The position numbers and the translations under genes are program-made. From Algoriphagus vanfongensis DSM 17529 (GTDB taxonomy: Bacteria; Bacteroidota; Bacteroidia; Cytophagales; Cyclobacteriaceae), in assembly GCF_000429465.1 (NCBI RefSeq), contig NZ_AUBX01000011.1:124001-188000 (forward strand): a DNA stretch of 64,000 nucleotides, in the 5' to 3' direction. Shown piece after piece: positions 4,996-12,842 of the stretch. Numbering within the stretch: position 1 is the stretch's first letter; the number at the start of each line of letters is the position of its first letter. The notes under the pieces were generated by a model, which was not told the origin of the DNA, did no database searches, and saw nothing but the letters and a program-made list of their open reading frames with translations.

Positions 4996-5113
4996 GGTTA
5001 ATTCCCTGTAATGCCATAAGTTGGCTGTAAATTATTTGCAGGAAAATGAGTATTTCCTTATTCTTGAGACCCTGATTTGTTACAAATTTAAAGAAATTTG
5101 ATTTTCAGGTTCT

Positions 5114-5185
5114 GGCCTCGTAGTTCAACGGATAGAACAAGCGTTTCCTAAACGCTAGATCCAAGTTCGATTCTTGGCGGGGCTA
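5114..5185 (+). tRNA. tRNA-Arg (anticodon CCU)
   Basis: A complete cloverleaf can be drawn. The 7-bp acceptor stem is 5114-5120 with 5178-5184, with G-U at the first and fifth pairs. The D stem GTTC/GAAC, the 5-bp anticodon stem AGCGT/ACGCT and the 5-bp T stem CCAAG/CTTGG with loop TTCGATT are all present. The 7-base anticodon loop 5145-5151 places CCT at positions 34-36, which reads AGG. Discriminator A is at 5185. CCA is not encoded. The gene is isolated, and no promoter with an exact TAnnTTTG was found just upstream. Confidence 0.95.
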
Positions 5186-5202
5186 TTTTACTAGTCAAGA
5201 CT

Positions 5203-5247: not shown

Positions 5248-6792
5248 TCACTTCCCTCTTTTTACTGTTGATTCACTCGTTCTGTAATCCTCCAAAAGGG
5301 TTTTTAACTCCGCGACTTTTTCGGGATTTTGCTCAAATAAATTGGCTCTCTGCTCCGGATCTTTTTTCATATCAAAGAGGAGACCTGGCGTATTGAAATC
5401 AGTATATCCGGTCAATTCTTTGAATGATTCTGGCAAAGGTCTAAGTCCTCCTGTCGAATCATTGATATAGAGCCAATTGCCTTTTCTGATTCCCCAGATT
5501 TTTGGATTCGTATTGTGTATGGTAGCATCTCTGAGAGGTGAGTTATATTCTTTTCCAGTGAAAACAGCAGTGAAATCATAACTGTCTGGAGCTGCTTTTT
5601 CTGGTAGTTCTATCCCCACAATATTGGCAATGGTTGCCATGATATCTATTTGAGAAATCAGTTCGTGGGAAACGGTCTCAGCCTGAATGTGCCCTGGCCA
5701 TTTGACAATGAATGGCACATGATGTCCTCCTTCCCAAACATCCCTTTTTAAACCTCGAAAATCACCCATACTGAAGTGATCAAACTTTTCCGCTCTTTCC
5801 CATGCATAATGCTCTGGGCCATTGTCTGCACTGAAAATGACGATAGTGTTTTCTTCCAAGCCACGATCCTTGAGGGTAGCCAATACTTCACCAATCACCC
5901 AGTCCGTTTGAACCATAAAATCTCCATATGCTCCGGCCTGTGATTTCCCGTCAAATTCATCATTTGGAATAATTGGAGCGTGTGGCGAAGGCAAAGCAAA
6001 GTATAAAAAGAAAGGTTTGTTTTTATCTTGGTTTTTGATCCATTCCTTGGTTTTCTGAGCCAAAGTGGGCAATACTTCATAAGGATTCCAGTCCTTGACT
6101 TTTGGTCCCGGTCTGAATTCCCAACTTCCTTCCTTTACTTCAAACCCGATGTTGTGGATATCCATGGTTTCGGTTGGAGCTTGGACGATTCGGTCATTTT
6201 CTACCCATGCATAGGGAGGGAAATTGATGGTGCCATCGCCGAAATAGTAATCAAAACCTCTGTCCAAAGGACCTCCTTTGACAGGCTTGCTCCAGTCGAT
6301 ATCCTCAGGGAGATAGTACTTGGTTTTATTTTCCCATTGTTCTACCTCAGCAGTGGGTTGATTTTTGAACTCCCAGTCCCAACCCAAATGCCACTTACCG
6401 ATAATGGCGGTAGAATAGCCTTCAGTTTGTAGAAGTTGAGGTAAGGTGATGTCAGTTTCTGCGAAAAACGGTTCCCCAAAAGCTCCCACTATACCGAACT
6501 GCCTCCTCCAGTGATAGGTCCCCGTCAAAAGTGCATATCTACTTGGAGAGCAGATTCCTGAAGAACTATGCGCATCCGAAAATCGCATTCCCTCTCTGGC
6601 CAACCTGTCGAGATTTGGGGTAGGGATTTTGGAGTTAGGGTTTTGGATAGCCAAATCTCCATAGCCCATGTCATCGGCATAGATAATAATGATATTTGGA
6701 GGGGTAGACCTGTTTTTTGAACAGGCAGATATACAAAGAATTAAAAAAAGGAATGTAATGATGCTTGATTTGGATAAAGAAAATGCGCGCAT
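5248..6792 (-). CDS. Sulfatase, lipoprotein-anchored (FGly type I family)
   Basis: 514 residues from the ATG at 6792. A GTG eight codons upstream is rejected because the ATG gives a clean lipoprotein signal peptide (hydrophobic residues 11-23, lipobox I-S-A-C, lipidated Cys24). The sulfatase signature C-S-P-S-R lies at residues 81-85, and Cys81 should be converted to formylglycine. The metal-binding D-D is at residues 40-41. The alkaline-phosphatase-like fold continues with G-K-W-H-L-G near 140 and S-A-D-N-G near 330. It removes sulfate esters from a sugar or polysaccharide at the cell envelope. It is the last gene of a six-gene operon, 66 bases behind the lactonase, so the substrate is probably a sulfated sugar oxidised by its neighbours. 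Substrate not inferable from the sequence. Confidence 0.9.
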
Positions 6793-6882
6793 GTATATGA
6801 TTGAAGATCGAGTCACGTAATTAGTCCAAATACCCTAAAAATTCAAATCGTTTGAATTAAAATGTTTTCAACTCTCTTTCAT

Positions 6883-7776
6883 CTAAGGGTTTTGTGGCTC
6901 TATGTGGGCTTGGTTTGTAGCCGTCCCGCCCACTTCGACTTTCACCAGAAAAACATTCCCGCTCTCCGGAAATTGCATGAGCAATTCAGGGCTAAGATTT
7001 TCTTGAGCAGTTGTAATTAGAAGTTGATCCAGATTAGGACCACCAAAAGCGCAAGAAGTCACATGAGGTACAGGGAGGTCAATTTTATCCAGAAGATTCC
7101 CGGATTTGGGATTCCAGCGGTAGACTCCAGATCCACCATAATGGGCTATCCATAGCATTCCTTCCTGATCGATACACATGCCATCAGGAGTTCCGATTTC
7201 TTTAGGGACATTTATAGCAATTCTTTTAAAACTGATTTCACCCGATACCACATCAAAGCCAAATTCTTGCACTTTTTGGGTAGGCGAGTCAATAAAATAA
7301 AAACTCGATTGATCCTCGGTCCAAGCCATTCCGTTGGAAATCGTCAGGTTTTCCAATTTCTTTTCAATAATCAAATCTTCAGAAATACGGTATAAAGAAC
7401 CGGCCCCTTCGGTAAACAAAGTGCTTAAAGTTCCTATCCAGATTCGCCCTCTTGGATCTACTTTTCCATCATTGAATCGGTGTAGAGGAAATTCATGTTC
7501 CACTTCTAGTAATGTTTCCTGCTTTCCAGTTTCGAGATCAAAACGAATCAAACTTCGGTCTAATCCCAAAATCAATTCATTTTCTTTTCCCTCTAGCACG
7601 ACTGCTAATCTTCCAGGAAATTTCTTGGTGGTTATAGTTTGAGAAGGCCACACCATTTGAAAAAGGGTACCGCTTTCAATATCCACCCAGAAAAAGGATT
7701 GATGCTTGGCAATCCAAATGGGACCTTCCCCAAGGAAGCATTGAGATGGGAAAGAGGTAAGGTTAAAAGGTTGCAA
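6883..7776 (-). CDS. SMP-30/gluconolactonase family lactone hydrolase
   Basis: A six-bladed beta-propeller of 297 residues without a signal peptide, so cytoplasmic. Family motifs are G-E-G-P-I-W near residue 18 (metal-ligand Glu), F-N-D-G-K-V-D-P-R-G-R-I-W near 107, I-S-N-G-M-A-W near 142 and G-T-P-D-G-M near 195 (metal-ligand Asn and Asp). These enzymes open sugar lactones made by sugar dehydrogenases, giving aldonates. The start is a TTG inside a tandem GGTAAGGTT sequence. No ATG lies upstream before a stop codon, so the start is less certain than for its neighbours. It is fifth in the operon, 103 bases behind the isomerase. In this context it should hydrolyse the lactone produced by the SDR or the zinc dehydrogenase. 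Confidence 0.85.
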   Translation of the reverse strand: MQPFNLTSFPSQCFLGEGPIWIAKHQSFFWVDIESGTLFQMVWPSQTITTKKFPGRLAVVLEGKENELILGLDRSLIRFDLETGKQETLLEVEHEFPLHRFNDGKVDPRGRIWIGTLSTLFTEGAGSLYRISEDLIIEKKLENLTISNGMAWTEDQSSFYFIDSPTQKVQEFGFDVVSGEISFKRIAINVPKEIGTPDGMCIDQEGMLWIAHYGGSGVYRWNPKSGNLLDKIDLPVPHVTSCAFGGPNLDQLLITTAQENLSPELLMQFPESGNVFLVKVEVGGTATNQAHIEPQNP

Positions 7777-7879
7777 AGTGGTAAGGTTTATAATTTTTGT
7801 TTAGGAATGAATTCCTTGATAAAACTTCGAGGGTACACTAACCTCAAAGACTATTAGTATGGCCCTAATTCTCATTTCA

Positions 7880-8764
7880 TTAATGCCAATATTGAGCGAT
7901 TTTTTTCTTCAAAAAGGCCACGCTGCGTTCCAATTGATCCATGCCGTCAACACCATCTTCAATACTGATCCATGAGTCAAAACCGACTCTTTTGAGCTCT
8001 GTGAAAATCGCATCATAATCGTTCATCCCTTTTCCGATTTCACCATGACTGAGTCGCTTTGCATATCCTTGTGCACCTCCTTCTTCTTTGCGAAGGTCTT
8101 CGATGGTTCCATATTTCAAGAACCTGTCACTCGCATGCATGGTGACTACTCTTTCAGACACATCATACAACAAATCCAAAGGATCTTCTCCTGCCAAAAA
8201 GGTATTACTTGGATCATAATTGACTCCAAAATTCGGATGATGGATGCTATTGACTAGCTGAGTGAATATGGCTCTTTTCTGTGCAAACTCAGGGTATTCC
8301 CAGAAGTCATCTTTGTAATGATTTTCGATGATCAAAGTGATCCCGAGCGATTGCGCATAGGGAAGGCAAGACTCGATGCATTCTTTAGCTAATTGAATTC
8401 CCTCTTCTACCGAAAGTTCAGGTCTGTACTGACCGGAAAGAACTCGGCAATAGGAGCCTCCCAAAACATCGGTCATTTCGATCCATCGCTTCTGTTTTTG
8501 GATTTCTTTTTCTCGGAATTTTTTGTCCCGATGCGTGAAATCAGGAGAACAGCACATCATGGGAATGACCATGCCTTCATCTTCTGCCATTCGGCGAAAA
8601 AGTGGCCAGTTCTTTTCGTCTTCCATTTCTAAAAATCCTGCATACCACTCCAATCCTTCGATTTCAAGAGGGGCTGCGAGTTGGATCCATTCGGAAATTT
8701 TCATACTTCCGTCTTTGCAGAGGGCCTGCATAAATGCTTTGGGAAAAGCTGCGAGTTTGGGCAT
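7880..8764 (-). CDS. Sugar phosphate isomerase/epimerase (xylose-isomerase-like TIM barrel)
   Basis: 294 residues with the AP-endonuclease-2/xylose-isomerase-like barrel. The metal-binding strands are visible: I-I-E-N-H near residue 157, G-V-N-Y-D-P-S-N near 195, M-H-A-S-D near 230, G-E-I-G-K-G near 257 and S-I-E-D near 278. These supply the Glu, Asp, His and Glu ligands. No signal peptide. Members of this fold isomerise or epimerise free or phosphorylated sugars, inositol derivatives and 3-keto sugars. It follows the SDR by 5 bases, so the two are cotranscribed. Substrate unknown; position in the operon suggests it acts on the oxidised sugar. Confidence 0.82.
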   Translation of the reverse strand: MPKLAAFPKAFMQALCKDGSMKISEWIQLAAPLEIEGLEWYAGFLEMEDEKNWPLFRRMAEDEGMVIPMMCCSPDFTHRDKKFREKEIQKQKRWIEMTDVLGGSYCRVLSGQYRPELSVEEGIQLAKECIESCLPYAQSLGITLIIENHYKDDFWEYPEFAQKRAIFTQLVNSIHHPNFGVNYDPSNTFLAGEDPLDLLYDVSERVVTMHASDRFLKYGTIEDLRKEEGGAQGYAKRLSHGEIGKGMNDYDAIFTELKRVGFDSWISIEDGVDGMDQLERSVAFLKKKIAQYWH

Positions 8765-8769
8765 TGTTG

Positions 8770-9561
8770 TTAGATTATGGTACTAGTGTCTTTTGGGGCA
8801 TTTCTGCCAATCATGGGGTGCTGCTCGAGATCCACGACTTGACCGCTGATTGGGCCACTTTCATCGCTAATCCAATAAATCGCTGCGGACGCAATTTCCT
8901 CAGGCCATAGAATTCTTCCGGATGGAGCATACATGGCAGGGAGTTTTTCATACCAAGTTTCGGAAAGTCCATGTTGCTTTTTCCTTTCTCTTTCCCGCTC
9001 AGTTAAAACCCAGCCTGGATTGATTTGATTGACCCGGACTCCATAGTCCCGCATCAAGGCATCACCCAGATTTCGTGTCATGGTCATCAATCCACCTTTG
9101 GAAATGCTATATCCGAGCAAATTGGGCTCGCCACTATAGGCGTTAACAGAGCCGATATTGAGTACACATCCTCTTGATTTTTGCAATTCTTCCAATCCAG
9201 CTTGGATCAAAAGGAATGGTGCAATTGTGTTGACGTCTATTACTTTTTGAAGTAATGTTTTATCTGTGGTTTGAATATCTGAAGAAACAACCCATGCGGC
9301 ATTGTTGACGATTGCGTCTAATTTTCCAAAGCTTTTTTTGGCAAGCGTAACCAATCGGTCTGCACAACCTATTGCGGAAATATCTTCCGCATGGAAAATG
9401 GCATTAGCTTCTCCAATTTCTGCTAAAACTTCCTTTCCCAGATTTTCTTCCAACCCGGTTAAAACGACTTTGGCTCCTTCGCGTACACATCGCTTGGCAA
9501 TGGCTTTTCCAATCCCGGTTGTGCTCCCCGTGACGATGATGACTTTATTTTCGAGTCTCAT
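8770..9561 (-). CDS. SDR-family sugar dehydrogenase (NAD(P)-dependent)
   Basis: 263 residues, a classical short-chain dehydrogenase. The cofactor motif T-G-S-T-T-G-I-G is at residues 11-18, N-N-A-A near 86, the catalytic Ser in N-I-G-S-V-N near 138, and Y-S-I-S-K near 151. The C-terminal segment E-Q-H-P-M-I-G-R is unusual. The gene begins 2 bases after the dehydrogenase upstream and lies 5 bases before the isomerase. In oxidative sugar pathways such enzymes oxidise the anomeric carbon of fucose, rhamnose, arabinose or galactose to the lactone, and the SMP-30 lactonase downstream fits that role. Alternatively it reduces a keto intermediate. Confidence 0.85.
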   Translation of the reverse strand: MRLENKVIIVTGSTTGIGKAIAKRCVREGAKVVLTGLEENLGKEVLAEIGEANAIFHAEDISAIGCADRLVTLAKKSFGKLDAIVNNAAWVVSSDIQTTDKTLLQKVIDVNTIAPFLLIQAGLEELQKSRGCVLNIGSVNAYSGEPNLLGYSISKGGLMTMTRNLGDALMRDYGVRVNQINPGWVLTERERERKKQHGLSETWYEKLPAMYAPSGRILWPEEIASAAIYWISDESGPISGQVVDLEQHPMIGRNAPKDTSTII

Positions 9562-9563
9562 CT

Positions 9564-10601
9564 TTAGACAGGTTTCAAAACTGATTTCACTACATCTCCA
9601 TGATGCATTTTTTCAAAAGCTTCTTTCCATTCTGTAATCGGCCACACACCGCCAATAATTGGTTTGACATTCAAAGCTCCAGAGGTCAAAAGAGCCAAAA
9701 CCCTTTCCCAAGTCGGCCAATTGTGGCTAAAGCTCCCCTGTAGTCTTACATTTTTTTGGACGATGGGGTCTATGGAAAAATTCAAAGGTTTTGGTCCCCA
9801 GCCTACTTTGGTAATTTGACCATTTGGGCGAACTAGTTTCATGGCCATTTGAAGGGTGGCGCTAACTCCGGCAGCATCAATAATCAGGTCTGCGCCCATA
9901 CCGTCCCGTTTTCTAGCCCAGGTTTCTGTGGCATCTTCTCCGACTAAAGGATCACAGCCATAGGCTTGTTGGGCTATTCCCAACCTGCCTTTATCCGCTT
10001 CCAGACCAACTATTCCGACTTCTGCTCCACAGATTTTTGCCACTGCTGCACAAAGGATTCCAATAGTTCCAGGACCTATCACAATCACGCGGTCACCGGG
10101 TTTGATGGAGGAATTTCCGACAACTGCATTGTAAGCAACACAGCAAGGTTCTGTCAGGCAAGCTTCCTCGAATGACAAAGTCTCAGGCACGCTGTGTAGG
10201 CATCTTGCTGGAACACGCACAAATCTGGTCATGGCCCCATTTACTCCATAGCCGAATCCTTTTCGGGTTGGATCCAGGTTATAAAGCCCCACTTTACTCA
10301 TGGGGTTCATCGGATCAATGATGGCGGCGGTTTCACTCACCACTCTATCGCCTACTTTCCAAGTGGAAACATTGGAGCCCAAAGAGGCTATTTTACCTCC
10401 AAATTCATGTCCCAATACCACGGGGTAATTGACAGGCCAACTATGGTCAGAGGTCCATTGGTGGAGATCCGATCCGCAGACACCTACGTTTTCTACTTCC
10501 AATAAAATATCATCGGGACCAATTTCCGGAACCGGGATTTCGCGTATTTCTACAGAATATTTTTCCTCTGAAAAATTTACAACTGCTGCTGATTTAGACA
10601 T
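9564..10601 (-). CDS. Zinc-dependent medium-chain dehydrogenase (sorbitol/threonine dehydrogenase-like)
   Basis: 345 residues. Catalytic zinc ligands are Cys42 (G-V-C-G-S-D), His65 and Glu66 (G-H-E-F). The NAD-binding Rossmann motif is G-P-G-T-I-G near residue 177. The lobe that usually binds the structural zinc with four cysteines contains no cysteine here (about residues 93-122), as in mammalian sorbitol dehydrogenase. It should oxidise a secondary alcohol of a sugar or aldonate with NAD. It sits 3 bases after the HUMPS-family gene and 2 bases before the SDR. Substrate unknown. Confidence 0.85.
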   Translation of the reverse strand: MSKSAAVVNFSEEKYSVEIREIPVPEIGPDDILLEVENVGVCGSDLHQWTSDHSWPVNYPVVLGHEFGGKIASLGSNVSTWKVGDRVVSETAAIIDPMNPMSKVGLYNLDPTRKGFGYGVNGAMTRFVRVPARCLHSVPETLSFEEACLTEPCCVAYNAVVGNSSIKPGDRVIVIGPGTIGILCAAVAKICGAEVGIVGLEADKGRLGIAQQAYGCDPLVGEDATETWARKRDGMGADLIIDAAGVSATLQMAMKLVRPNGQITKVGWGPKPLNFSIDPIVQKNVRLQGSFSHNWPTWERVLALLTSGALNVKPIIGGVWPITEWKEAFEKMHHGDVVKSVLKPV

Positions 10602-10604
10602 GAA

Positions 10605-11312
10605 TTAGGATTTGGATGGGATTACTGTTTCTTGGCTGTGAATCGCTTCACAAATCATACGGAGGGAACTTTCCAGATCTCCGCTTGCGGTCTTGAAGGA
10701 GTCCGCATCAATGGTAAGTGGAGCTCCCAAAACCACCAAAGGAGCCCCATATTGTGGGCATTGAATAGCCTGCTCAAGGGATAGTCCACCTACCGCTTGA
10801 ACTGGAATGTCAACAGCCGTAACAACTTCTCTTAATTGATCAAGAGGGCTGGGCATGCGATGACCAGCAGCCGCAATTCCTCTTCTTTCATCGTATCCGA
10901 TATGGTGTATGACATAGTCACAACCTAGATCTTCTAAAAATTTTGCGCCTGCGACCATGTCTGGACAGACCATATTGTCACCCATTACTTTGGCTCCGAA
11001 GTCTTTTCCAGCCTGGACTACACATTTGATGGTTTCAGCATGAGCTCTCGCCATCACCACGACATGAGTCGCTCCGGCTTTAGCCATCATTTCAGCTTCG
11101 AGATAGCCCCCATCCATGGTCTTCAGGTCGGCTACTATTGGAATACCGGGAAAAGCTTCTCTTAATTTTCGGACTCCGTGGAGGCCTTCTGCAAGAATTA
11201 ATGGGGTTCCCGCCTCCAGCCAATCCACTCCGGCCCGCATTGCCATTGCGGCAGTTTCGAGCGCTTCATCAATATTGGTAAGGTCTAGGGATATTTGTAC
11301 AATAGGTTTCAT
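10605..11312 (-). CDS. HUMPS-family aldolase/decarboxylase, hexulose-6-phosphate-synthase-like
   Basis: 235-residue TIM barrel of the orotidine-5-phosphate decarboxylase suprafamily. The invariant D-L-K-T-M-D motif is at residues 62-67, and the Mg-binding Glu33 lies in L-E-A-G-T-P. The H-x-G-Y-D segment near residue 137 and the D-L-K-T-M-D form resemble 3-hexulose-6-phosphate synthase. 3-Keto-L-gulonate-6-phosphate decarboxylase instead shows D-A-K-I-A-D and a different His/Arg loop. Known enzymes either condense formaldehyde with ribulose-5-phosphate (or the reverse) or decarboxylate 3-keto-gulonate-6-phosphate. No 6-phospho-3-hexuloisomerase (SIS domain) or sugar kinase gene is nearby, so a plain ribulose monophosphate role is unlikely. 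It is the first gene of the sulfatase operon. Confidence 0.8.
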   Translation of the reverse strand: MKPIVQISLDLTNIDEALETAAMAMRAGVDWLEAGTPLILAEGLHGVRKLREAFPGIPIVADLKTMDGGYLEAEMMAKAGATHVVVMARAHAETIKCVVQAGKDFGAKVMGDNMVCPDMVAGAKFLEDLGCDYVIHHIGYDERRGIAAAGHRMPSPLDQLREVVTAVDIPVQAVGGLSLEQAIQCPQYGAPLVVLGAPLTIDADSFKTASGDLESSLRMICEAIHSQETVIPSKS

Positions 11313-11451: not shown

Positions 11452-11488
11452 CAAAAAAAGAAAACCTCAAGGGGTTGCCTTGAGGTTT
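11452..11488 (-). terminator. Rho-independent terminator of the PEGA-domain gene
   Basis: A perfect 10-bp stem (11462-11471 with 11479-11488) with a 7-base loop. On the minus strand it is followed by a T-rich run (TTCTTTTTTT). It separates the PEGA gene from the sulfatase operon. Confidence 0.88.
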
Positions 11489-11510: not shown

Positions 11511-12842
11511 TTATTGAAGTCTCGCCTGAATTTCCTGGACGAGTCCTTCGTATTTTTTGAGGATACGTGACCAATCTTCAAATTTCTCATCGTCTTTTAC
11601 CGTGACTGAGTTTTGACCATCCAGAAAAGCTTCCTGGCTGATCAGTTTGACAGCATAAGCCAACTGATCTGAATTGCCTCCGCTACTGACAATTACCCTA
11701 GTACGAATTACGCTGGAAGCGAAATTTTCCACTTGCCAAGAGGTGGTCAAGTAGCCCGTGTTGTAATCTACAGTTTCGAGGATGTCGAAGTATCTGGTAA
11801 CGATAGAAGATAAGATTCTCCAGGCCTCTTCGGAGCTGTGCGCGGAATTTACCGGAACTGTGATTCGTACATTGGCTAGGTCGGAAGAAACAGAAGATGT
11901 GTAGGCTTCATCGACTGCCATCTCGATGAAATCAGTCGCAGGTGGCTCTTGCATATTTGCTTGGTTAAAATATGTTTTGGCATAGCGCACGTAGCCATCT
12001 TTGAGAACTCTGATCTCCACGCTACCATTTAGAGGAACTTTGAGATCATAAGATCCCGTACCGACTGTTTTGCCATTGATCTGTACCAAAGCATCACTCG
12101 GGTTGGTCGTGATTTTGACCAGTCGGTCTTCAAGTTTTGCCTGCTCTCTTACTGGAGGTTCAGGATCTGTGTCAGGTTTGTTGCAAAATACCTTCGTGTA
12201 TTCCACATATCCATCTTTATTGACGGTCACCGTGACGCATTCTCCGAGTGGGACATTGATGTCTTGATTCCCTCTTCCCACAGAGATTCCATTGGCTGTC
12301 ACATTGCCATCCGCTGGCAATACTTCCAGTCTTACTTGCCTGTCTTCTAGTTTAAAGAAGTCTTTGAAGGGTGGTGTTTCCCGGTCTGGAGAGTTGTAGT
12401 ATGTTTTGGTAATAGGTGCGTATCCTGATTTTTTGATTTCGATGGTATGAAATCTATCTTTTTCGATGACCAAGTAGATGCCCTTGGTACCGATACTTCT
12501 TCCGTCAACAAAGATTTCTGCATCGTAGGGCTCAGCCGCTATTTCTACTCTTCTGGAGTCCAATGACACTCGCTGGTCTTTGTCCCACTTGAGGTCTTTG
12601 TTGTACTCTTTGATCACTGGCTGGTAGCCAGGCTTGGTGATTTTGATTCTGTTTTTGGAGTTTTTTTCGAGTTTGTACTCGATCGTGCCTGTGCCTAGCT
12701 CCTGCATGTCAGAGTCATCATAATCATTGAGAAGGATGAATTTGGCGTCGGAATGGTTGGCAGTGATTTGTAATTTTTGAGCGTGGGCAGAAACAACAAA
12801 AAGTCCCAGCACCCAAAGGGAGAGTAAAGGTCTATAATTCAT
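11511..12842 (-). CDS. Secreted PEGA-domain repeat protein
   Basis: 443 residues from the ATG at 12842. A possible ATG 39 bases upstream is rejected because it lies inside an inverted repeat and would put 13 extra residues before a clear signal peptide (L-L-S-L-W-V-L-G-L-F-V-V, cleaved after S-A-H-A). The mature protein has four tandem beta-sandwich repeats (about residues 22-95, 96-170, 171-245, 246-320). Each has a P-x-D-A or P-A-D-G start, a G-x-x-I/V-G turn, and a K-x-G-Y followed by K-x-Y/F and a P-P-x-x-D-F/x-x-x-E-D stretch, as in PEGA domains. The last third is a separate, unrecognised domain. PEGA proteins are extracytoplasmic and probably bind carbohydrate or envelope material. Monocistronic. 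Confidence 0.8.
   Translation of the reverse strand: MNYRPLLSLWVLGLFVVSAHAQKLQITANHSDAKFILLNDYDDSDMQELGTGTIEYKLEKNSKNRIKITKPGYQPVIKEYNKDLKWDKDQRVSLDSRRVEIAAEPYDAEIFVDGRSIGTKGIYLVIEKDRFHTIEIKKSGYAPITKTYYNSPDRETPPFKDFFKLEDRQVRLEVLPADGNVTANGISVGRGNQDINVPLGECVTVTVNKDGYVEYTKVFCNKPDTDPEPPVREQAKLEDRLVKITTNPSDALVQINGKTVGTGSYDLKVPLNGSVEIRVLKDGYVRYAKTYFNQANMQEPPATDFIEMAVDEAYTSSVSSDLANVRITVPVNSAHSSEEAWRILSSIVTRYFDILETVDYNTGYLTTSWQVENFASSVIRTRVIVSSGGNSDQLAYAVKLISQEAFLDGQNSVTVKDDEKFEDWSRILKKYEGLVQEIQARLQ

Follow-up and report, generated by a model that had tools for sequence, protein, structure and literature searches.

What does a relative of the formaldehyde-fixing enzymes do at the head of a gene run that also encodes two sugar dehydrogenases, a TIM-barrel isomerase, a lactonase, and a sulfatase? 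The question is posed by a locus of Algoriphagus vanfongensis DSM 17529, within the 64,000-nucleotide stretch of DNA analysed here (the window; positions 124,001 to 188,000 of contig NZ_AUBX01000011.1). All six open reading frames lie on the minus strand of the window (5248..11312), with inter-gene gaps of 3, 2, 5, 103, and 66 nt in transcription order. A sequence-only reading had described this six-gene set, the gaps of 2-5 bases among the first four genes, and the domain content. All of this is borne out: the Pfam matches are OMPdecase/HUMPS (80.9 bits), ADH_N with ADH_zinc_N, adh_short_C2, AP_endonuc_2, SGL (SMP-30), and Sulfatase.

That reading is also right that the HUMPS protein is not 3-hexulose-6-phosphate synthase (HPS); its link to the sulfatase is unsupported as a general claim. 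Decarboxylation of a free-sugar beta-keto acid is our best reading of the sequences, and we offer it tentatively. The features concerned are these:

10605..11312, minus strand: HUMPS protein of clade X (defined below), 235 aa; proposed 3-keto-aldonate decarboxylase, from Pfam, family models, tree, and residues.
9564..10601, minus strand: zinc-type medium-chain dehydrogenase (MDR) of the threonine 3-dehydrogenase / sorbitol dehydrogenase / IolM group, 345 aa; proposed aldonate 3-dehydrogenase.
8770..9561, minus strand: short-chain dehydrogenase (SDR), 263 aa, adh_short_C2; proposed aldose 1-dehydrogenase.
7880..8764, minus strand: AP_endonuc_2 TIM-barrel isomerase/epimerase, 294 aa; proposed pentulose 3-epimerase.
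6883..7776, minus strand: SMP-30/regucalcin-type lactonase, 297 aa, SGL, TTG start as called; accessory.
5248..6816, minus strand: S1-type sulfatase, exported lipoprotein, 522 aa if read from the GTG start, although the true start is probably some 8 codons further on.
11462..11488, minus strand: terminator-like hairpin between the PEGA gene and the HUMPS gene, a consensus match only.

The HUMPS protein is, to judge by its sequence, a distinct relative of the formaldehyde-fixing enzymes. It scores 141.5 bits against the HPS model TIGR03128, below the cut-off of 200. It falls below both models for 3-keto-L-gulonate-6-phosphate decarboxylase (KGPDC; 81.9 vs 250 for PRK13306, and 63.1 vs 294 for PRK13305) and both for orotidine-5'-phosphate decarboxylase (OMPDC; 22.7 vs 92.3 bits for TIGR01740, pyrF, and 37.9 vs 208 for PRK13813). 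A separate PF00215 match (89.4 bits, in a 282-aa frame) is present in the genome. The phylogeny that the sequence-only reading had called for, against HPS, KGPDC, and OMPDC, comprised 63 rows: 35 from clade X, 14 fused HPS, 11 HPS, 2 KGPDC, and 1 OMPDC. Clade X, which includes the window protein, forms one side of a branch with support 100/100, apart from HPS, fused HPS, and KGPDC, so the protein does not cluster with HPS; the OMPDC row is very long, and the branching order among the remaining groups is uncertain. Pairwise identities show the same gap: at least 57% to the window protein within clade X, except for a partial second copy in genome G269 (53%), and about 31-46% for HPS and fused HPS. 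The closest named protein among the matches listed, from A. zhangzhouensis, is 99% identical.

The active site is conserved. The D-L-K-T-M-D motif picked out in the sequence-only reading lies at residues 62-67, and the HPS/KGPDC residues D10, E33, D62, K64, D67, H137, and D141 (window numbering), which we take to be catalytic, are retained. Every clade-X row that can be read at these positions (34-35 of 35) has the catalytic D, E, DxKxxD, and H. A further 13 residues are shared by at least 34/35 clade-X rows but by no more than 10% of the 27 rows for HPS, fused HPS, and KGPDC; among them are R143, Q172-A173-V174, and P198. Position 143 is Arg in all 35 clade-X rows and Gln in all 27 of the others. 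The changes cluster at the phosphate-loop glycines: Q172-A173-V174 precedes G175-G176, and P198 follows G196. (A197 is invariant in clade X, yet occurs also in 4/11 HPS.) The predicted structure (pLDDT 84; residues 197-210 below 50) confirms the fold.

In the window's genome (99.96% complete) the best match to the PHI model TIGR03127 reaches 37.8 bits against a cut-off of 160. Of the outcomes that the sequence-only reading had named as refuting it, clustering with HPS and a phi gene elsewhere in the genome were thus both looked for, and neither was found. None of the 19 clade-X genomes searched, this one included and some of them draft or metagenome-assembled, has PHI above 160 bits. Two genomes of the same genus, G030 and G028, lie outside those 19; both have clade X plus a true HPS (251.6 and 253.4 bits) directly behind PHI (241.5 and 233.9 bits). 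Two kinds of HUMPS protein thus coexist within one genome, and G032 also has both. (The true hxlB-hxlA pairs lie at positions 860-2118 of locus L028 and 858-2121 of L030.) The classical ribulose monophosphate (RuMP) role, already judged a poor fit in the sequence-only reading, is rejected on four grounds: the HPS cut-off, the tree, the lack of any PHI that passes its cut-off, and the existence in two relatives of an hps-phi pair distinct from the clade-X gene. A clade-X gene could nevertheless be mistaken for one of formaldehyde fixation, which warns against inferring RuMP metabolism from such a gene alone.

Which of the neighbouring genes belong with the HUMPS gene? A scan of named genomes for HUMPS yielded at least 579 confirmed stretches (of 589). 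The best 80, a sample biased to high identity, and 28 others, one of which (L213) is the window itself, make up the 108 loci studied. Of these, 86 have at least 6.5 kb of downstream sequence; they are non-independent, 24 being of the kind that we label Algoriphagus-type. On the HUMPS strand within 6.5 kb, the MDR gene is found at 69 of the 86, the TIM-barrel gene at 57, the SDR gene at 52, the SMP-30 gene at 24, and an orthologue of the sulfatase gene at 2. At the 61 loci that are neither Algoriphagus-type nor the window, the corresponding counts are 44, 32, 27, 0, and 0. The SMP-30 gene occurs at 27/31 Algoriphagus-type loci and in the window, and at no other of the 108. The conserved unit is HUMPS with the zinc dehydrogenase and the TIM-barrel isomerase, often with the SDR, in Bacteroidota, Verrucomicrobiota, and Planctomycetota. 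In the window the first four genes are, on this comparison of sequences, that unit, and the SMP-30 and sulfatase genes lie outside it.

The partners also co-occur when they are not adjacent. HUMPS stands alone at 17 of the 86 loci. Unlinked partners were sought in the genomes of 14 of these 17 and in that of L105, in which the MDR gene lies about 6 kb downstream; the controls were 16 genomes without clade X, hand-picked from the Planctomycetota and Verrucomicrobiota lists without a match. The MDR (E 1e-80) was found in 10/10 genomes without an adjacent copy (nine HUMPS-alone genomes plus that of L105) vs 0/16 controls (Fisher 1.9e-7), and the TIM-barrel protein (E 1e-30) in 9/10 vs 1/16 (Fisher 3e-5). 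Thus, outside the deepest branches, HUMPS, MDR, and TIM-barrel genes travel together even when unlinked. The neighbours of the TIM-barrel gene in seven genomes where it is split off offered no clue: they encode esterases, a pseudouridine synthase, a GGDEF protein, an FAD oxidoreductase, two small proteins whose only matches are weak ones to peptidases, and one protein that matches nothing.

Clade X itself is found in 25 of 58 relatives (own genome included; read from hit tables), 11 of 395 Bacteroidota, 12 of 288 Verrucomicrobiota, and 16 of 294 Planctomycetota. One more Bacteroidota match (G248:C30) is divided over two frames, and possibly reflects a pseudogene or a sequencing error. The remaining 103 of the 119 Planctomycetota genomes with a match show only 34-46% identity. 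The median identity to the window protein at the 54 Verrucomicrobiota and Planctomycetota loci is 89%, in a sample partly picked by that identity. Spread by plasmids was considered and rejected: in all 178 plasmid records with a match, identity is below 60%, and those with names, among the 40 matches listed, are hxlA. Planctomycetota loci L159-L172 hold 14 HPS-like proteins that share 39-46% identity with clade X and are much extended at the C-terminus (their open frames run to 431-625 aa), and many more such extended proteins appear in the match table for that phylum.

What chemistry would employ this set of enzymes? HUMPS enzymes act on 3-keto sugars. Threonine 3-dehydrogenase (Tdh) makes a beta-keto acid, and it and scyllo-inosose 3-dehydrogenase place the keto group at C3. 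The models nearest to the MDR are those for L-threonine 3-dehydrogenase (185.9 bits) and scyllo-inosose 3-dehydrogenase (174.2), all below cut-off. The TIM-barrel protein has the AP_endonuc_2 fold, confirmed by its predicted structure (pLDDT 90.6), with a candidate metal-site tetrad of E147, D184, H210, and E269; none of the NCBIfam models passed its cut-off, and a fold search with the structural model gave matches without separating epimerase from hydratase or dehydratase.

These features suggest a pathway whose early intermediates would be free of phosphate. The SDR would oxidize a hexose at C1; the SMP-30 protein, where present, would open the lactone; and the Tdh-like MDR would oxidize the hexonate at C3, giving a beta-keto acid. 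HUMPS would then decarboxylate this acid, via the metal-stabilised enediolate of its superfamily, to a pentulose (D-ribulose if the sugar is D-gluco). The TIM-barrel protein would epimerise the pentulose, for example D-ribulose to D-xylulose, and a pentulose kinase encoded elsewhere would admit it to the pentose-phosphate pathway. The sugar itself may be supplied locally by enzymes outside the core: the sulfatase here, and in other relatives either a lyase-like protein or a GH13 enzyme together with a transporter. This order is proposed as the simplest that uses all of the conserved parts. We infer each reaction, the order, the substrate, and its lack of phosphate.

The core would thus be a sugar-catabolic module, an unphosphorylated analogue of the oxidative pentose-phosphate and Ula routes that converts an oxidised hexose to a pentulose, an assignment to which we give a little less than an even chance. 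Oxidation followed by C-C cleavage or decarboxylation, as the sequence-only reading had put it, remains the leading, if provisional, interpretation. The changes at the phosphate loops, the ribulokinase of the window's genome, the pentulose kinase in the gene run of one relative, and the 3-keto-glycoside genes at a few other Bacteroidota loci, described below, also count in favour of the free-sugar reading. That a single route from free hexose or 3-keto-hexose to pentulose, by C1 and C3 oxidation and a phosphate-independent HUMPS decarboxylase, runs through all three phyla is more doubtful.

Similar steps are known elsewhere. The oxidative pentose-phosphate pathway, with its 6-phosphogluconate dehydrogenase step, likewise proceeds by C1 oxidation, lactone opening, C3 oxidation, decarboxylation to a pentulose, and epimerisation, the sequence proposed here; however, the protein families of the module differ, and its substrates are probably free sugars. 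Escherichia coli Ula and Yia-Sgb offer a likeness in their genes, with a HUMPS-superfamily decarboxylase beside a TIM-barrel epimerase (UlaD-UlaE, SgbH-SgbU), and their chemistry also takes a 3-keto acid to a pentulose. UlaE is a remote relative of the TIM-barrel protein (hhalign probability 83). Those systems, in contrast, use phosphorylated substrates and a 4-epimerase, and clade X does not keep KGPDC residues E112, R139, and T169. As far as found in the open-access literature, the three-to-four-gene module is undescribed; no account of the gene set was found there, consistent with the earlier statement that it is not a recognised pathway.

Several observations weigh against the free-sugar decarboxylase. 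Three positions, 112, 139, and 169 in UlaD numbering, separate KGPDC from HPS (compare the titles of structures 1xbx and 1xby). In the 35 clade-X rows they hold D; Y, F, or L; and V or I. Positions 112 and 139 are HPS-like, which favours aldol chemistry, and 169 is neither HPS- nor KGPDC-like. The phosphate-loop glycines are kept, so that phosphate binding is possible. At L206-L208, three loci of one genus, a phosphofructokinase (PFK)-family gene lies directly upstream of HUMPS, a hint that sugar phosphates are involved. The window's genome has four FGGY kinases, and all score below the cut-off of the TIGR01315 pentulose-kinase model (best 171.3 vs 408.7). The SDR, which would carry out the C1 oxidation, is found near HUMPS at 11/54 Verrucomicrobiota and Planctomycetota loci. 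The MDR (E 1e-80) was present in 0/5 of the remaining HUMPS-alone genomes searched, in which the HUMPS protein is 57-75% identical, and the TIM-barrel protein (E 1e-30) in 4/5; deeper branches lack a close MDR copy, and the co-occurrence holds outside the deepest branches. Finally, genes of the 3-keto-glycoside pathway lie near few loci, and none is among the six genes of the window. (The L206-L208 genomes hold a second PFK-family gene elsewhere.)

Two of these points speak for an HPS-like aldolase that joins or splits a 3-hexulose, free or phosphorylated, and a C1 aldehyde, the dehydrogenases preparing or clearing the products. D112, the absence of R139, and the DLKTMD motif are all HPS-like; the best solved matches of the HUMPS protein, by sequence and by fold, are the HPS enzymes 9lj9 (40% identity over the model alignment) and 3f4w; and a PFK-family gene lies upstream in one genus. 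HxlA, including its bifunctional and fused forms, does share the catalytic Asp/Lys/His set. We nevertheless consider such an aldolase unlikely: clade X stands apart from HPS in score and tree, occurs without PHI above cut-off, and has its own residues by the phosphate loops; the Gln of all HPS, fused-HPS, and KGPDC rows is Arg at 143; and two relatives retain a true hps-phi pair beside it.

The kept glycines and the PFK-family gene, together with the UlaD-UlaE layout, also speak for an Ula-like pathway, in which the same decarboxylation would act on a 3-keto acid bearing a phosphate and the kinase gene would lie outside the cluster. The conserved core, however, is without a kinase, and the clade-specific P198 and residues 172-174 adjoin the loop glycines. 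Moreover, the sole FGGY kinase found in a clade-X gene run, at L212/L231, is of the pentulose type (661 bits vs a cut-off of 408.7); such a kinase would act on a free pentulose. A phosphorylated substrate is rated as quite unlikely. As for the claim that there is no sugar kinase, it holds for the operon and fails for the genome, which has ribulokinase-type and xylulokinase-like genes elsewhere. The four FGGY genes are a ribulokinase type (685 bits; cut-off 428), a XylB-like kinase (299.8, below 380), a glycerol kinase, and one of no assigned type.

A third alternative has HUMPS acting directly on 3-keto-aldoses from the 3-keto-glycoside pathway, with C1 released as formate. It arises from the few loci at which genes of that pathway stand in the run. 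The order at L212/L231 is PF06439 hydrolase, HUMPS, MDR, SDR, TIM barrel, GMC oxidoreductase, gluconate-2-dh3, YdjC, FGGY pentulose kinase, and L-fucose isomerase, the kinase being on the same strand as the rest. At L102 it is GMC, gluconate-2-dh3, Gfo/Idh/MocA, PF06439, a 186-aa frame, HUMPS, MDR, SDR, TIM barrel, DUF386 (YiaL-like), and DHDPS; DUF386 is also present in the E. coli yia-sgb operon. At L204 the PF06439 gene lies between MDR and SDR, and at L099, from Verrucomicrobiota, a weak PF06439 protein (32.7 bits, cut-off 26.8) follows MDR. Altogether a PF06439 3-keto-disaccharide hydrolase stands in the HUMPS gene run at 3/108 loci, and GMC plus gluconate-2-dh3 pairs lie near 4. Among the 22 non-Algoriphagus Bacteroidota loci, gluconate-2-dh3 is near 4, where genome density would predict 0.31, and PF06439 lies on the same strand, no more than 2.1 kb away, at 3, where 0.16 would be predicted (both post hoc); when whole flanks are counted, PF06439 shows no clear enrichment (3 observed vs 1.3 expected).

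Glucoside 3-dehydrogenase and the PF06439 hydrolase handle 3-keto sugars, and share gene runs with the module in a few Bacteroidota. One report (PMC9007349) gives the fate of 3-ketogalactose as unknown, and places Algoriphagus aquaeductus T4 among the lactose users with LacA-like and DUF1080 proteins in the genome. That strain is locus L036 of our set. Set against direct deformylation are the rarity of such genes across loci, their absence from the window's six, and the MDR, which would be left without a clear step; we know of no precedent for the reaction. We regard it as very unlikely.

Were free-sugar decarboxylation true, a free-sugar branch would be added to the HUMPS superfamily, and there would be a testable answer to where 3-keto sugars go. 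Were the full route from free hexoses true, it would be a third way, beside the pentose-phosphate and Entner-Doudoroff pathways, of oxidising hexoses into central metabolism, and would account for what becomes of the 3-keto sugars that the 3-keto-glycoside pathway yields. An enzyme this conserved, which belongs to neither the curated HPS nor the curated KGPDC family and whose partners recur across three phyla, is a sign of a real pathway.

There remains the sulfatase, with which the sequence-only reading had the pathway begin: desulfation first, then oxidation and cleavage of a sulfated sugar. The protein itself has the sulfatase domain (208.1 bits, Pfam), with a C-S-P-S-R formylglycine motif and a lipobox-like LCISAC by eye. 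Its nearest solved relatives are S1_15 and GalNAc-6-O-sulfatases, including 9bau ('S1_15B sulfatase'), a subfamily placement by nearest match only. Its gene lies 66 nt downstream of the SMP-30 gene; in A. zhangzhouensis the sulfatase is followed by a 622-aa protein that clusters with the Hepar_II_III_C protein of L040; and distant sulfatases (24-37% identical) are encoded in the flanks of 8 further loci of the 108, on the HUMPS strand only in L109 and L203. The orthologue, though, adjoins the cluster at 2/86 loci, one of which is the window, plus the near relative L235, and at 0/61 non-Algoriphagus loci. In L031 the SMP-30 gene and the sulfatase gene beyond it are about 1.3 kb apart, and by eye the sulfatase looks exported and the other proteins cytosolic. 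Restriction of the orthologue to the window and two near relatives means that a desulfation-led pathway is not supported, and on this distribution we reject the sulfatase as the first step. Desulfation as the entry to the pathway thus strikes us as highly improbable; the neighbouring sulfatase is probably a local, lineage-specific add-on.

Other contexts vary as widely. Near 12/31 Algoriphagus-type loci are genes for a GH13 enzyme and for an MFS transporter that weakly matches a sucrose symporter model, and elsewhere there are SSF or MFS transporters; XylR-type, LacI, or AraC regulators; and sulfatase or lyase-like proteins. Because the context beyond the core varies, the neighbours do not name one sugar substrate. 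The attempt to name it from them was dropped, the contexts (GH13, sulfatase/lyase-like, GMC/PF06439, PFK, transporters, regulators) being too varied.

Several minor features were seen alongside. An opposite-strand gene lies upstream of HUMPS in L057, L065, L073, L075, L080, and L087; that of L075 belongs to the HpcH/HpaI aldolase family (56.3 bits). Near HUMPS at L089 (10696-11712, 337.5 bits) and at four other Verrucomicrobiota loci is an opposite-strand PdxA-family gene. An open frame of 199 aa, membrane-like by eye, falls between MDR and SDR in L032, L034, and L039, near 11766-12365. In the window, the promoter scan found fewer sites than in shuffles, and is uninformative for this phylum. 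The terminator-like hairpin just upstream of the HUMPS gene has a stem of 11 bp and is one of 12 such sites in the region, vs 7.0 in shuffles. At the other end of the operon, beyond its variable tail, a tRNA-Arg gene (anticodon cct; 5113-5186, plus strand) lies between the sulfatase gene and rpsP.

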